In this document: positions 2,272 to 8,106 of the stretch, piece after piece | Layout: each line of letters starts with the position of its first letter | Position numbering within the stretch: the stretch's first letter is position 1 | Source of the DNA: Phycisphaerales bacterium | Lineage (GTDB): Bacteria > Planctomycetota > Phycisphaerae > Phycisphaerales > SM1A02 | NCBI GenBank assembly: GCA_022446965.1 | Contig: JAKVBV010000002.1 | Coordinates: 1 to 64,000 of the forward strand | Direction of reading: 5' to 3' | Length of the DNA: 64,000 bases | Notes under the pieces: model-generated | What the model saw: the letters and a program-made list of their open reading frames with translations, nothing else | Told to the model about the DNA's origin: nothing | Database searches by the model: none | Translations under genes and position numbers: made by a program

Positions 2272-3330
2272 TCAGGCGGTCGTCAGATCACGCGTTCTGG
2301 CATCGGCGGCCTTGCCTTCCAAAATCGGGTTCGGTGTCCATCCATCGCACGCCTTGGCATGCCAGAATCGCAAGACGCGCTCGATCTCAGCGGACGAGTT
2401 GGCGGTTCGAATGCCTTCTTTGAGCGGCTTCACATGGCCCATGGTGCGGGCGAACTTGGCGATGCCGCTGCGCATGCGATGCAGCGCGTTCCGCTCATCC
2501 AGGTGCTCCATGATGAGCTCCAGATGACGCAGCAAGTACTCGACCTTGGTCTTGAATGTCGGCTCGGGCACAGCCACGCCTTCGGTCAACACACCGTGGA
2601 TCTGATGGAACACCCAAGGGCGCCGCAACGCACCACGGGCGATCATCACGCCGTCACAGCCTGTGACATCCATCATGTGTTGCGCGTCAGCGGCGACTTC
2701 GATGTCACCATTGCCGATCACGGGGATGGCGTCGACCGCGTCAACGACAGCCTTGATGCCCTGTAAACACGCGCGGCCCTTGAAGAACTGCTCGGTGGTG
2801 CGGCCGTGCACCGTGACAGCCGCGATGCCCACCTGCTCCAACGCACGGGCAAGCGGTGGTCCGACGATGCGATCGTCATCCCATCCGAGTCGAATCTTGG
2901 CCGTGACTGGTTTGCCGGTGGATGGCGTGATGGCCTCGACGATGCGTTCGGCCAGCCGCACGGTGGAGTCGACATCACACAGCAGCAGTGAACCACCGTG
3001 CTTCTTAGCGACTTTGTCGACGGGGCAGCCCATGTTGATGTCGATCACGTCGGCGCCGTTGTTCACCGCCCATCGTGCGGCGTCTGGCAATGGGTCATGT
3101 TCATTGCCGTAGAGCTGCATGCACAGTGGTTCGTCGCCAGGTGCAGTGGCGGCCAACGCCAGCGCCTTGGGTGAGCCACGCAGCAGGCTGTGCACATTGA
3201 GCAGATCCGTGCTGGCGAGGCCAACACCGCCAATCGACCGGCACAACAGGCGAAACGGCAGGTCAGTATGCCCCGCCATCGGCGCAAGTAGGGCAGGAGA
3301 GTCGAGTTGGATAGATCCAATCGTAAGCAT
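2272..3330 (-). CDS. dus: tRNA-dihydrouridine synthase
   Basis: FMN-dependent enzyme that reduces specific uridines in the tRNA D-loop. Visible family motifs in order: PMAGHTDLPFRLLCR at the N-terminus, MQLYGNE, DINMGCPVDKV (the Cys is the catalytic acid), KIRLGWDDD, TVHGRTTEQFFKG, IPVIGNGDI and GVMIARGALRRPW (FMN phosphate site). The start at 3330 (MLTIGSIQLDSP) puts the FMN-binding beta strand about 15 residues in, as in relatives; the open frame continues further 5' without homology. About 352 residues, normal for the family. The subtype (DusA/B/C) is not assigned. The 5' end lies close to a decayed gene fragment on the other strand. Confidence 0.93.
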   Translation of the reverse strand: MLTIGSIQLDSPALLAPMAGHTDLPFRLLCRSIGGVGLASTDLLNVHSLLRGSPKALALAATAPGDEPLCMQLYGNEHDPLPDAARWAVNNGADVIDINMGCPVDKVAKKHGGSLLLCDVDSTVRLAERIVEAITPSTGKPVTAKIRLGWDDDRIVGPPLARALEQVGIAAVTVHGRTTEQFFKGRACLQGIKAVVDAVDAIPVIGNGDIEVAADAQHMMDVTGCDGVMIARGALRRPWVFHQIHGVLTEGVAVPEPTFKTKVEYLLRHLELIMEHLDERNALHRMRSGIAKFARTMGHVKPLKEGIRTANSSAEIERVLRFWHAKACDGWTPNPILEGKAADARTRDLTTA

Positions 3331-3376
3331 GCAGTGCCTGTGATGGTCGCGTCGCCCGGCAAGGCGTGCAAGGGCC

Positions 3377-3601
3377 ATGGTTGATGATTGCGCAGCCACC
3401 AGCCAGCCCCATTTGCTGGCCACCACCGGCGTGGGCTTCGCCACGGATCATGTGACCAATCACGCCGATCCCGGGGTGATCTACATGGGTGAGGTGGTCT
3501 GGAGCTTCCTCGGCCCGGATCACATTCAAACCCACTGGTGGAGCTTCTAGGACGGCGTGAAGAGCGATCCACTGACCTTCGATCTGCACCGCGTGCCCTG
3601 A
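3377..3601 (+). pseudogene. Decayed C-terminal fragment resembling a DUF1579-type protein
   Basis: The frame starting at 3377 reads a protein-like stretch (VDDCAATSQPHLLATTGVGF, then MGEVVWSFLGPDHIQTHWW). A TAG at 3548-3550 interrupts it, and it resumes in the same frame as DGVKSDPLTFDLHRVP before a TGA at 3599-3601. The arrangement of a QP-hydrophobic strand, a D-H-I-(Q/R)-T-x-W strand, DGK/DGV and a closing E/DL-x-R-V strand is what I recall of the C-terminal beta strands of DUF1579-like (heme-binding/lipocalin-like fold) proteins. The N-terminal half and any start are missing. I infer a remnant left between dus and dnaK. The family name is from memory. Confidence 0.5.
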
Positions 3602-3687
3602 CGCTGCCGTTCTGGCAGTCTCCTGAGCCCATTTCGCCACTTCCGCGGGCAATTGTGTGCGGCAACTGTGCCATTGCCCGGGTGGGT

Positions 3688-3704
3688 TTGGCACGCTGAT
3701 TGCA
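3688..3704 (+). promoter_or_regulatory. Sigma-54 (RpoN) promoter of dnaK
   Basis: TTGGCACG at 3688-3695, four bases, then TTGCA at 3700-3704. This is a perfect match to the -24/-12 consensus TGGCACG-N4-TTGCA, with the invariant GG and GC at the right spacing. The predicted transcription start is near 3715, giving a leader of about 65 nt before the dnaK ATG, which has a strong ribosome site. Nothing else downstream could use it. I found no second match this good in the window. An enhancer-binding activator would be required. Confidence 0.8.
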
Positions 3705-3778
3705 ACAGGTGATACAGCGGGCACGGGCCTGTGACGGCCGATTCGGGCAGGAGTCCGGCGGCCAGAAGGAGGACACGA

Positions 3779-5680
3779 ATGTCCAAGATCATCGGTATCG
3801 ACCTTGGCACCACCAACAGCTGCGTTGCTGTGATGGAGGGCGATCAGCCCAAGGTGCTCATCAATGCTTCCGGGAACCGCACAACGCCGTCCGTCGTGGC
3901 GTTCACCGACAAGGGTGACCGCCTCGTGGGCGAGCCTGCACGTCACCAGCAGGTGACCAACCCCACCAACACACTCTTCTCCGTCAAGCGTTTCATGGGT
4001 CGTCGTCATGACGAAGTCCAGAGCGAAGAGAAGATGGTGCCCTACACGTTGTCTGGCGACGATCTCGTCACCATTGGTGTCGGGGACAAGAACTACACGC
4101 CGCCGGAAGTGTCGGCCATGGTGCTGCGTGAGCTCAAGCGGATCGCTGAGGAGTACCTCGGCGAGAGCGTGACTCGTGCCGTCATCACCGTGCCGGCCTA
4201 CTTCAACGACGCGCAGCGTCAGGCCACCAAGGATGCCGGCGAAATCGCCGGGCTCACGGTGGAACGCATCATCAACGAGCCTACGGCCGCCGCGCTGGCC
4301 TACGGTCTTGAGAAGAAGACCAACACCAAGATCGCCGTGTTTGACCTCGGCGGTGGCACGTTTGACGTGTCCGTACTGGACATCGGCGACGGGGTGTTTG
4401 AGGTGCTTGCTACGCATGGTGATACACACCTTGGTGGTGATGACTTTGACCAGGTGCTCATCGATCATCTCGCTGAGGAATTCCGCAAGACCGAGGGCAT
4501 CGACATCCGCACCGACGCGATGGCGCTACAGCGGCTCAAGGAAGCTGCCGAGAAGGCCAAGTGCGAACTGTCGCAGCAACTGGAAACCACGGTGAACCTG
4601 CCGTTCATCACGGCCGATCAGAATGGCCCCAAGCACCTGCAGGTGACCATCACTCGTGCCACCTTCGAGGCGCTGGCCAAGGATCTGCTCGACCGTCTCA
4701 TCAAGCCGTGCAAGACGGCCATGAGCGACGCAGGACTGAGAACCGGTCAGATCGGCGAAGTGGTGATGGTGGGTGGTTCCACTCGTATCCCCAAGGTGCA
4801 GGAGATCGCCAAGGAGATCTTCGGTACGGGTGAGTTGGACAAGTCCATCAATCCCGACGAGGTCGTGGCGGTTGGTGCCGCGATTCAGGGTGGTGTGCTG
4901 CAGGGTGACGTCAAGGACGTGCTGCTGCTGGATGTGACGCCACTGAGCCTGGGTGTGGAGACACTTGGTGGACTGATGACCAGCCTCATCGAGAAGAACA
5001 CCACGATCCCCACGTCGAAGAAGGAGACCTTCTCGACTGCGGCAGACAGCCAGACATCGGTCACGATTCATGTGCTCCAAGGTGAACGTGAGTTCGCCAA
5101 GGACAATCGCACGTTGGGCAAGTTCGACCTGACGGACATCCCGCCGGCGCCACGTGGCATGCCGCAGATCGAAGTGGAGTTCGCCCTTGATGCCAACGGC
5201 ATCCTCAAGGTGTCCGCCACAGACAAGGCCACAGGCAAGAGCCAGAACATCGAGATCACTGGTTCCTCGGGCATGTCTAAGGACGAGATTGAGAAAATGA
5301 AGGCTGACGCCGAGGCCCATGCCAGCGAAGACAAGGCGCGTCGTGAACTCATCGAGGTGCGCAACCAGGGCGAGCAGATCGCCTATCAGGTGCGCAAGCA
5401 ACTCGAAGAGCATGGCGACAAGGTTGATGCGTCCACGATGGGCACCATCGAGTCGGCCGTCTCCAATCTCGAGGAGAAGCTCAAGGGTGACGACAAGGCC
5501 GCCATCGAGGCCGCCATCAAGCAGGTCACCGATGCGGCACAAGAGCTGGGCAAGGCGGCCTACGAGGCTGCCGCCGCACAGCAGGGCGAAGGCGATGCCC
5601 CAGAGGCGACCGCCGAAGCCACCGCTGACGACGTCATCGACGCAGAGTATGAGGTGAAGGACGACCAGTCCGGATCCTGA
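3779..5680 (+). CDS. dnaK: Chaperone DnaK (Hsp70)
   Basis: ATP-dependent cytoplasmic chaperone. The protein starts [21 protein letters not shown], the canonical phosphate-1 loop, and has [18 protein letters not shown] and the [10 protein letters not shown] phosphate-2/adenosine motifs. The substrate-binding domain ([14 protein letters not shown]) starts near residue 390, and an acidic EEF-free tail ends in QSGS. The start at 3779 is preceded by AAGGAGG at about 3766-3772; upstream in-frame codons have no homology. 633 residues is normal. dnaJ and grpE are not adjacent. The sigma-54 promoter at 3688-3704 suggests regulation unlike the usual CIRCE/HrcA or sigma-32 control. A hairpin terminator follows at 5729-5759. 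Confidence 0.98.
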
Positions 5681-5787: not shown

Positions 5788-5856
5788 CTTGCTCCACTTC
5801 TTCAGCGACACTGAGGGGGAGCACCCTGTCCTGGGGAGGGCGAGAGGAGTCTCTTG

Positions 5857-8106
5857 ATGTTGCTGACCACGATTGCGCTGGCCCCGTGCCTCGTCGCTGA
5901 TGTCCCCATGCCTGATCCCGCCGACTACATCGGCAAGCGCATCGTGCAGGTGCAGATCGATGACCCCATGCAGGTGCGTGCCTTGATGGACGGCGGGCTG
6001 GATTGCCTCGCGTGCACGCCAAGCCCGGGCAGCCACCAGTGGGTGGTGGACGACATTGATCTGGCGACCCTTTCAACGATGGGGCTGCAGTGGACACCCG
6101 TGGTCGACGACCTGTCTCGGTACATGGAAGATCGGAACGCCGAACGCCGCGCCGCTCGAGCCGCTCGTGGCGATGCGTTCTACGACGACTACCGAACTCT
6201 TGATGAGTTCAATAGCCGAATGGACACCCTTGTAGAGCTTTATCCGAACATCGTCACACCTATCACCATTGGCCAGAGTCATGAGGGTCGCGACATCCGG
6301 GGCTTCATCCTGTCCGTGGGAGAGGCTCAAGACCGGCCGGCCATTCTGTTCAACGGGTGCCAGCATGCCCGTGAGTGGATCTCACCGATGACAGTCATGT
6401 ACATCGGCGAAGAACTCGCCAAGGGTGCCGGTGCAGACCCCACGATTACCGAGTTGCTCCAGCGATTGGAAGTGATCGTGATTCCGGTCGTCAATCCTGA
6501 TGGATTCGAGCACACCTATGCGGCTGGTGGCTACCGCTTCTGGCGCAAGAACCGCCGCGACAATGGCGGCTCATGCATGGGCGTGGATCTCAACCGCAAC
6601 TGGGGCATCGATTGGAATGGCGGTCAGAGCACCAGCGAAGATCCATGCAGTGACATCTATGTCGGCCCCGGGTCCATGAGTGAGCCCGAAGTGCAGGCGC
6701 TCGGCGACTACTGCCTGAATCATGGCAACATCGTGGCCCAGATCGATTACCACTCGCACGGCGACTTGATCCTAGAACCACTGGGATACTCGTCCACGCA
6801 GCCTCCGGATTGGGAGGAGATCCATGAGTTGGGCCTGGACATGCGGAGCGCCATCGGCGCCGTGCACGGGCGGTACTACACCACTGATACCCCTTGCAAC
6901 ATTCTGTACTGCGCCAGTGGCACGCTGATCGACTGGCCCCATGAGGTCTATGGGTCGATGGCCTACTGCATCGAGTTGCGTGGACCGGGCTTTGATGCGC
7001 CGCCATCGGAGATTCGCCCTTGTGCCGAAGAGAACCTGCAAGGTGCCATCGCAATGATGGCCCGCTTTGGTGAGTCAGTGTCCATCACATTGCCCGGCGG
7101 TGCGCCTGAGTATGTACACACCGAAGACGACACGACGTTTGCGGTCCGTCTGGAAGCGATCAATGAGTCTGTAGATACCGCTACGCTTCGCTGGCGTGGC
7201 GGCGATGGTGGGTTCATTCCCTCCGATCTGGTCTATGTCGACGGAGAAGATTGGGAGGCCACACTGCCACCATTCATCTGCGAGAGCGATCCTGAATTCT
7301 TCATCGCCGTTGATACGGTTGAGGGGTCATCCGTGTACCTGCCGGCCGAAGGCATGACGGCACCATTTGCAGCCGAGCCTATCTCAGATGCAGAAATCAG
7401 CTTTGAGCACAGTGGCGAAGATGACGCAGGCTGGACTAGTGCCGGCGACGCCATCGATGGCCAATGGGAAGTTGGCACGCCAGTTGGGGGTGGTTTGCGC
7501 GGTGATCCGCCGCAGGATGCAGATGGCAATGACCTCTGCTGGCTGACTGACAACGTTGAGGGCAACAGCGATGTGGACGGAGGCACTGCCACGCTCATCA
7601 CCCCGCCGCTGAACTACGGCGGGCTTGGCTTGGTGCTCCGGTACTCGCGTTGGTTCGACAACACATTCGGCGCCGCACCGGGCGAAGATTTCTTCCGCGT
7701 TGCGTGGACAGACGACCTCGCCTCGGGCAGTTGGAATCCAGTTGAAGTGGTCGGCCCCGATGGGGCAGGCACGACTGGGGGCTGGATCGATGTTGAAATC
7801 GATCTTGATGCCTTGGCGGTTCCGCAAGTCGGTCCCATCTGGCTGCGATTCAATGCAGAGGATCTCGGCGACGGTAGCGTGGTCGAAGCCGGCGTCGACG
7901 CCATCTCGCTCACTCGGGTCATCTGCGAAGACGACACCGAGCCGTGCGCGGGTGATGTCGATGGCGACGGCATGGTGGGTGTCAATGACATCCTTGCCGT
8001 GCTTGCCGCCTTTGGAAGTGACGATACATCAGGCGACGCCAACGGCGACGGATTCGTCGACGTGAACGACATTCTGACGGTGGTTGGTGCGTGGGGTGAT
8101 TGCTGA
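5857..8106 (+). CDS. Secreted M14 zinc carboxypeptidase with dockerin-like C-terminal tail
   Basis: Exported metallocarboxypeptidase that removes C-terminal residues from peptides. A short signal peptide (MLLTTIALAPCLVA) leads into a propeptide-like region. The M14 domain spans about residues 115-410, with zinc ligands H170 and E173 (CQHAREW), H299 (DYHSHGD), the substrate-binding NPDGFEHTY and DLNRNWG, and catalytic E373 (YCIELRG). A beta-rich region follows. The last ~50 residues hold two dockerin-type calcium loops (DVDGDGMVGVNDI and DANGDGFVDVNDI). ATG at 5857 was chosen because AGGAG lies 8 nt upstream; the TTG one codon earlier is less likely. The tail is typical of Phycisphaerae secreted proteins and probably serves sorting or anchoring; that role is inference. 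Confidence 0.92.
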   Translation: MLLTTIALAPCLVADVPMPDPADYIGKRIVQVQIDDPMQVRALMDGGLDCLACTPSPGSHQWVVDDIDLATLSTMGLQWTPVVDDLSRYMEDRNAERRAARAARGDAFYDDYRTLDEFNSRMDTLVELYPNIVTPITIGQSHEGRDIRGFILSVGEAQDRPAILFNGCQHAREWISPMTVMYIGEELAKGAGADPTITELLQRLEVIVIPVVNPDGFEHTYAAGGYRFWRKNRRDNGGSCMGVDLNRNWGIDWNGGQSTSEDPCSDIYVGPGSMSEPEVQALGDYCLNHGNIVAQIDYHSHGDLILEPLGYSSTQPPDWEEIHELGLDMRSAIGAVHGRYYTTDTPCNILYCASGTLIDWPHEVYGSMAYCIELRGPGFDAPPSEIRPCAEENLQGAIAMMARFGESVSITLPGGAPEYVHTEDDTTFAVRLEAINESVDTATLRWRGGDGGFIPSDLVYVDGEDWEATLPPFICESDPEFFIAVDTVEGSSVYLPAEGMTAPFAAEPISDAEISFEHSGEDDAGWTSAGDAIDGQWEVGTPVGGGLRGDPPQDADGNDLCWLTDNVEGNSDVDGGTATLITPPLNYGGLGLVLRYSRWFDNTFGAAPGEDFFRVAWTDDLASGSWNPVEVVGPDGAGTTGGWIDVEIDLDALAVPQVGPIWLRFNAEDLGDGSVVEAGVDAISLTRVICEDDTEPCAGDVDGDGMVGVNDILAVLAAFGSDDTSGDANGDGFVDVNDILTVVGAWGDC

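Follow-up and report, generated by a model that had tools for sequence, protein, structure and literature searches.

A sigma-54 promoter and candidate enhancer upstream of dnaK in a planctomycete, and evidence for a chaperone regulon with a single activator

The region 3604-3704 of the window, by which we mean the whole stretch of 64,000 nucleotides analysed from a Phycisphaerales bacterium (contig JAKVBV010000002.1), very probably combines an enhancer with a sigma-54 promoter and, judged from sequence, would place dnaK in an RpoN-dependent proteostasis regulon with one activator that replaces control by RpoH or HrcA. Rather than being peculiar to dnaK, the element is part of a regulon that takes in the chaperones in general and apparently extends over the phylum. 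The features of the locus are as follows.

2272-3444, minus strand: dusB (tRNA-dihydrouridine synthase), divergent upstream neighbour (TIGR00737, 304.2 bits, above cut-off)
3604-3618, no strand assigned: palindrome CTGCCGTTCTGGCAG, a candidate enhancer (upstream activating sequence) that begins 85 nt before TGGCAC
3688-3708, plus strand: -24/-12 sigma-54 promoter in its extended form TTGGCACGCTGATTGCAACAG, the core of which is conserved at dnaK in Planctomycetota
3715, plus strand: predicted transcription start, placed by spacing only, 12 nt downstream of the -12 C (3703)
3766-3772, plus strand: Shine-Dalgarno sequence AAGGAGG upstream of the dnaK ATG
3779-5680, plus strand: dnaK, 633 aa (TIGR02350, 935.5 bits, cut-off 822.55)

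An exact -24/-12 element upstream of dnaK was the core of the original prediction and was recovered as TTGGCACG-CTGA-TTGCA at 3688-3704 on the plus strand (window sequence gtttGGCACGctgaTTGCaacagg; TTGGCACG at 3688-3695, TTGCA at 3700-3704), with exact GG-N10-GC spacing and its end 74 nt before the ATG at 3779. The exact form TGGCAC-N5-TTGC occurs a single time within the window. Since dusB lies on the opposite strand, the interval between both genes is taken as promoter region; the true start of dusB is to be sought nearer to 3321, because the match to the family model starts at residue 42. A consensus scan of 3320-3800 revealed no sigma-70 promoter. Just before the candidate enhancer, at 3360-3600 (plus strand), lies a coding-like stretch (reading TDHVTNHADPGVIYMGEVVWSFLGPDHIQTHWWSF, stop, DGVKSDPLTFDLHRVP, stop) that is interrupted by an in-frame TAG, has no Pfam match and is possibly a gene remnant. 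Directly 3' of dnaK, a 750-aa protein is predicted at 5854-8106 (plus strand), with a C-terminal GC-type dockerin-like domain scoring below the curated cut-off.

Taken by itself, the core of the element is modestly above chance in the window, as 14 sites with no or one mismatch were observed against 8.3 expected (about 1.7-fold), a figure that would suit a fortuitous resemblance of GC-rich DNA to the sigma-54 consensus. Counts across the host genome speak against such a coincidence. The assembly (2.24 Mb, 97% complete) has Phycisphaerae affinity, and the closest relative of its dnaK belongs to a Phycisphaerae MAG (82%). Exact TGGCACGNNNNTTGC was found at eight sites versus one for the reversed pattern; four of these lie between genes or where a gene begins. 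The other four fall within other coding frames (those of an RseP-like gene, a HAM1-like gene and two further ORFs) and were discounted as fortuitous. The extended form TTGGCACGNNNNTTGCAACAG, with up to two mismatches, yielded four sites versus none in the control, and all four precede chaperone operons:

this window, plus strand: dnaK (site 1)
C43:7624: groEL, a second groEL, dnaJ, an FmdB-like zinc-ribbon ORF and grpE (site 2)
C58:68590, minus strand: a 167-aa receiver-like protein, groES and groEL (site 3)
C69:23222, minus strand: clpB (site 4)

Together, these sites cover the DnaK, GroE and ClpB machines. Gene order suggests that the genes of each group share one transcript; groEL of the C58 operon, which has no score of its own, was identified solely from its place behind groES and from its antisense frame. 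As a lineage-wide signature the -12 extension TTGCAACAG was discarded, since with up to two mismatches its counts in most genomes from the order are close to those of the control; it is thus a feature of the host genome, and only the -24/-12 core and the enhancer travel. For clpB and the receiver gene, no more than 1-3 nt separate the predicted sigma-54 start from the annotated start codon, which implies near-leaderless mRNAs or different starts, whereas dnaK and groEL possess a leader and a Shine-Dalgarno sequence. The receiver gene leading the host groESL (L037:5075-5578, minus strand, the clpB locus being L036) is degenerate and lacks the acidic pair, Thr and Lys. In four loci of other planctomycete families (L269, L272, L273 and L275) an intact receiver-only protein is the first ORF after the -12 element in groESL operons, and in L272 and L273 an additional small ORF (MSDR..KVLMIQTPQGV.KI), without Pfam match in L272, lies between the receiver gene and groES. 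A role of the host receiver protein as phosphate sink is weakened by its missing residues, while the copies of relatives look intact.

The presence of rpoN and of enhancer-binding proteins had been named as a check on sigma-54 control, and a lack of rpoN as grounds for refuting it; the genome was found to contain rpoN and an enhancer-binding protein. One RpoN DNA-binding domain was detected (PF04552, 192 bits, C13:45108). Three proteins match Sigma54_activat, one strongly (233.6 bits) and two weakly (30 and 23 bits), of which one is the clpB gene product and the other presumed to be Clp-type, so that one activator is counted, although a second could be missing from an assembly that is 97% complete. 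The strong match (C58:41796-43178) has the architecture REC-AAA+-Fis, includes GARGAFTGA with the GAFTGA motif of AAA+ sigma-54 activators, and carries an intact receiver (PF00072) in which the acidic pair, Asp, Thr and Lys are visible.

The classical alternatives, of which heat-shock sigma factors and HrcA/CIRCE had been noted as invisible at dnaK in the original prediction, were likewise not found. No PF01628 match for HrcA exists in the host genome, where positive controls were detected, and both the CIRCE operator and, for the HspR system at operator level, HAIR gave matches at shuffle level only. Among 12 Sigma70_r2 proteins, four non-RpoD candidates were scanned for RpoH (two RpoS/RpoD-like group-2 factors and two FliA/WhiG-like factors, the rest looking like RpoD or ECF by eye), and none exceeded the cut-off (best 143.6 versus 323.1). 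Control of the host chaperones by HrcA/CIRCE, HspR/HAIR or RpoH is therefore unsupported.

A search for activator sites at 3400-3690 had been proposed, and a predicted one was located there: the palindrome at 3604-3618, the only exact CTGCC-N5-GGCAG in the window, is likely, on sequence grounds, to be bound by the activator. Corresponding palindromes begin upstream of TGGCAC by 85 nt at dnaK and 115 nt at groEL (both exact), and by 104 nt at groESL and 44 nt at clpB (one mismatch each), which amounts to 10, 10, 9 and 9 of 10 matching bases at the four host operons. Spacing was assessed in 22 regions, of which 18 lie before dnaK genes of other organisms. With a spacing of 5, at least 9/10 bases matched in 15/22 regions and at least 8/10 in 20/22; other spacings reached these levels in 0-2 and 3-11 regions, and shuffled regions in at most 2 and at most 7, respectively. 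As the motif had first been spotted by eye in some of the same 22 regions, the independent test is the gene-blind search described below. The exact palindrome was rejected as a stand-alone signature, because it is not enriched genome-wide (seven sites versus eight for the reversed control); its weight comes from position, two of the seven lying within the 4 x 200 bp upstream of the chaperone sigma-54 sites (P about 3e-6).

Conservation in relatives was evaluated in a non-exhaustive sample of 80 named dnaK loci picked via conserved peptides, taking the best -24/-12 score within 300 nt with weights hand-set from the consensus and a threshold of at least 22/26. It was reached before dnaK in 17/17 Planctomycetota (Phycisphaerae, Pirellulales, Kuenenia and others), 1/1 Lentisphaerae and 1/2 Gemmatimonadota, and in none of the 60 other loci (Acidobacteriota, Bacteroidota, Proteobacteria and others); outside Planctomycetota and Lentisphaerae, 1/62 loci thus bears the element. 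The two -24/-12-like elements beyond the Planctomycetota belong to Gemmatimonadetes bin94 (L074) and Lentisphaeria UBA2565 (L123), and at dnaK of the latter the enhancer palindrome was not found.

In the gene-blind search, 294 genomes of Planctomycetota were screened for TGCC-N5-GGCA-N66-96-TGGCA-N6-TTGC while genes were ignored. It returned 66 matches, two in the host genome and 64 elsewhere, versus seven for the reversed control. Chaperone genes follow 52 of the 64 (DnaK 19, GroEL/GroES 25, ClpB/ClpC 6, one of which sits behind an hsp20, and Hsp20 2); these matches are partly non-independent, since some genomes are congeners. One further match precedes secA and one a receiver-only gene, and about ten, mostly located within other genes or impossible to classify, resemble chance matches, near the number predicted by the control. 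The strict pattern matches only 57/294 genomes, so the absence of a match says little. The enhancer and sigma-54 element before the SecA-like gene (L253, genome G469) were identified by eye, and this gene, with its link to protein export, may belong to the regulon. The chaperone sigma-54 regulon apparently spans the phylum Planctomycetota. With all four extended host sites before chaperone operons, the core at every planctomycete dnaK sampled and the outcome of the gene-blind search, a chance match was rejected and retains next to no probability, conservation upstream of dnaK in relatives being what excludes it.

The same data bear on the idea that dnaK is mainly transcribed from an unrecognised promoter of the sigma-70 family, for instance by a group-2 sigma factor, with the sigma-54 element in a minor part. 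Planctomycete sigma-70 promoters may differ from the scanned consensus, and dnaK is generally needed at a basal level, while a sigma-54 promoter gives no transcription unless its activator is active. Across the phylum, however, element and enhancer are both conserved, which shows selection for sigma-54 use at chaperone genes, and we regard this idea as improbable.

The best matches of the host activator, within the same order, are 63-64% identical. Outside the order the strongest matches reach 43-50%, versus about 40% for other activators, and most strong matches share the recognition helix G(I/M)GERTLYRK; by identity and helix, compared without a tree, they are probable orthologues. A histidine kinase adjoins the activator in 16 of the 22 top loci. 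Fourteen of these kinases have no obvious extra domain, and two with longer N-termini (L199, L201) may belong to paralogues. Among the 14, a possible Met start lies 19-32 residues before the H-box in 12 and the start is ambiguous in two, and no transmembrane segments are apparent. The two kinases that were profile-scanned consist of HisKA and HATPase only, without recognisable sensor domain. No kinase stands beside the activator in the host genome or in two others of its order, and about 310 kb of host sequence (overlaps included) contained no match to the partner kinase.

A kinase of this build names no signal by its sequence, which leaves room for a reading in which the sigma-54 promoter is real and responds to growth state, development or nutrition, basal and heat-induced dnaK coming from another promoter. 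The two group-2 sigma factors of the host would suit it, as would Chlamydia, in which tandem sigma-66/sigma-54 promoters precede hrcA-grpE(-dnaK) and the sigma-54 regulon is mid-late developmental (PMC7482065, PMC8762339). Against it stand the almost pure chaperone content of the gene-blind regulon, from which a proteostasis signal fits best (52/64), and the lack of a visible sigma-70 consensus promoter at dnaK; it appears unlikely to us, if less so than a hidden sigma-70-type promoter.

Activator-dependent control of dnaK, as originally predicted, is thus favoured by rpoN, one activator, the palindrome and conservation, and proteostasis control might operate as follows. The NtrC-type activator would bind CTGCCA-N3-TGGCAG-like palindromes upstream of dnaK, groEL-dnaJ-grpE, REC-groES-groEL and clpB, an assignment that is forced in the host only if its activator is truly single, and would loop to the closed sigma-54 polymerase complex and remodel it, so that the four operons would form one proteostasis regulon substituting for control by RpoH or HrcA. 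The activator is probably switched on by phosphorylation of its receiver, because its nearest relatives adjoin a short, cytoplasmic, sensor-less kinase in most of the phylum. The lack of a sensor also suggests a cytoplasmic protein as partner, free chaperone being the favoured candidate, and the most likely signal would be proteotoxic stress, sensed when kinase or activator interacts with free chaperone. Sites, genes and their conservation are observed, and we infer binding, start site, phosphorylation and signal from them. Far more tentatively, and with some doubt, the heat shock response of Planctomycetota, possibly already of the PVC ancestor, may be pictured as a two-component sigma-54 circuit, in which a soluble, transmitter-only kinase gated by free DnaK/GroEL would phosphorylate one NtrC-type activator, dnaK, groESL, dnaJ-grpE, clpB and hsp20 would be turned on via the shared CTGCCA-N3-TGGCAG enhancer, and the receiver-only protein cotranscribed with groESL would feed back on kinase or activator.

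Enhancer-binding proteins of Pirellula were reportedly treated by Studholme and Dixon in 2004. In the freely readable literature, neither the enhancer nor the activator/kinase pair turned up, and the same holds for receiver-led groESL operons, for the regulon with a single activator and for a genome with all of its strict sigma-54 sites at chaperones. Predicted sigma-54 promoters are known to be enriched at the GroEL, GroES, GrpE, DnaJ, DnaK and IbpA groups in Planctomycetota, mostly Planctomycetia and fewer in Phycisphaerae, and in Bacteroidota (PMC12316311, PLoS One 2025). The parts of that study available to us state that the specificity between enhancer-binding protein and promoter is not available for all organisms, and name neither an enhancer sequence nor an activator or kinase for chaperone genes; here, in contrast, a genome with a single activator, a palindrome and a conserved activator/kinase pair were identified, while none of 12 Bacteroidota dnaK loci reached our threshold. 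Sigma-54 enrichment at planctomycete chaperones and the Chlamydia promoter were hence already known, whereas the enhancer, the activator/kinase pair and the regulon with a single activator appear new.

In Rhodopirellula, heat shock induced chaperones and left rpoH, rpoE and rpoN unchanged, for which a significantly different response cascade was suggested (PMC2754498). With no induction of rpoN, this pattern agrees with activator control without demonstrating it, and it would be explained by a sigma-54 regulon that is gated by an activator and has a defined enhancer. The induction of planctomycete chaperones had been left open before, and a sigma-54 switch makes their control directly testable; the small host genome, with its one RpoN, one activator and four chaperone operons, offers a clean system for doing so.

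Among known systems, CtcB-CtcC/sigma-54 of Chlamydia trachomatis, from the same superphylum, resembles the present one in its NtrC-type regulator with sensor kinase and in a sigma-54 promoter upstream of hrcA-grpE. Chlamydia, however, keeps HrcA/CIRCE and a sigma-66 promoter, and its regulon comprises mostly late developmental and secretion genes, whereas the host has no HrcA and all its strict sigma-54 sites belong to chaperones. With NtrB-NtrC-type systems the host shares REC-AAA+-Fis architecture, GAFTGA and a palindrome starting 85-115 nt upstream at three of four elements, but here the chaperone set is targeted, and in other members of the phylum the paired kinase is HisKA-HATPase alone. 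RpoH (sigma-32) and HrcA/CIRCE have the same targets (dnaK, groESL, dnaJ, grpE and clpB), yet the host possesses neither RpoH over the cut-off nor HrcA or CIRCE, and a sigma-54 heat-shock regulon would represent a distinct mode, under positive control and off without its activator, compared with sigma-32 or a repressor.
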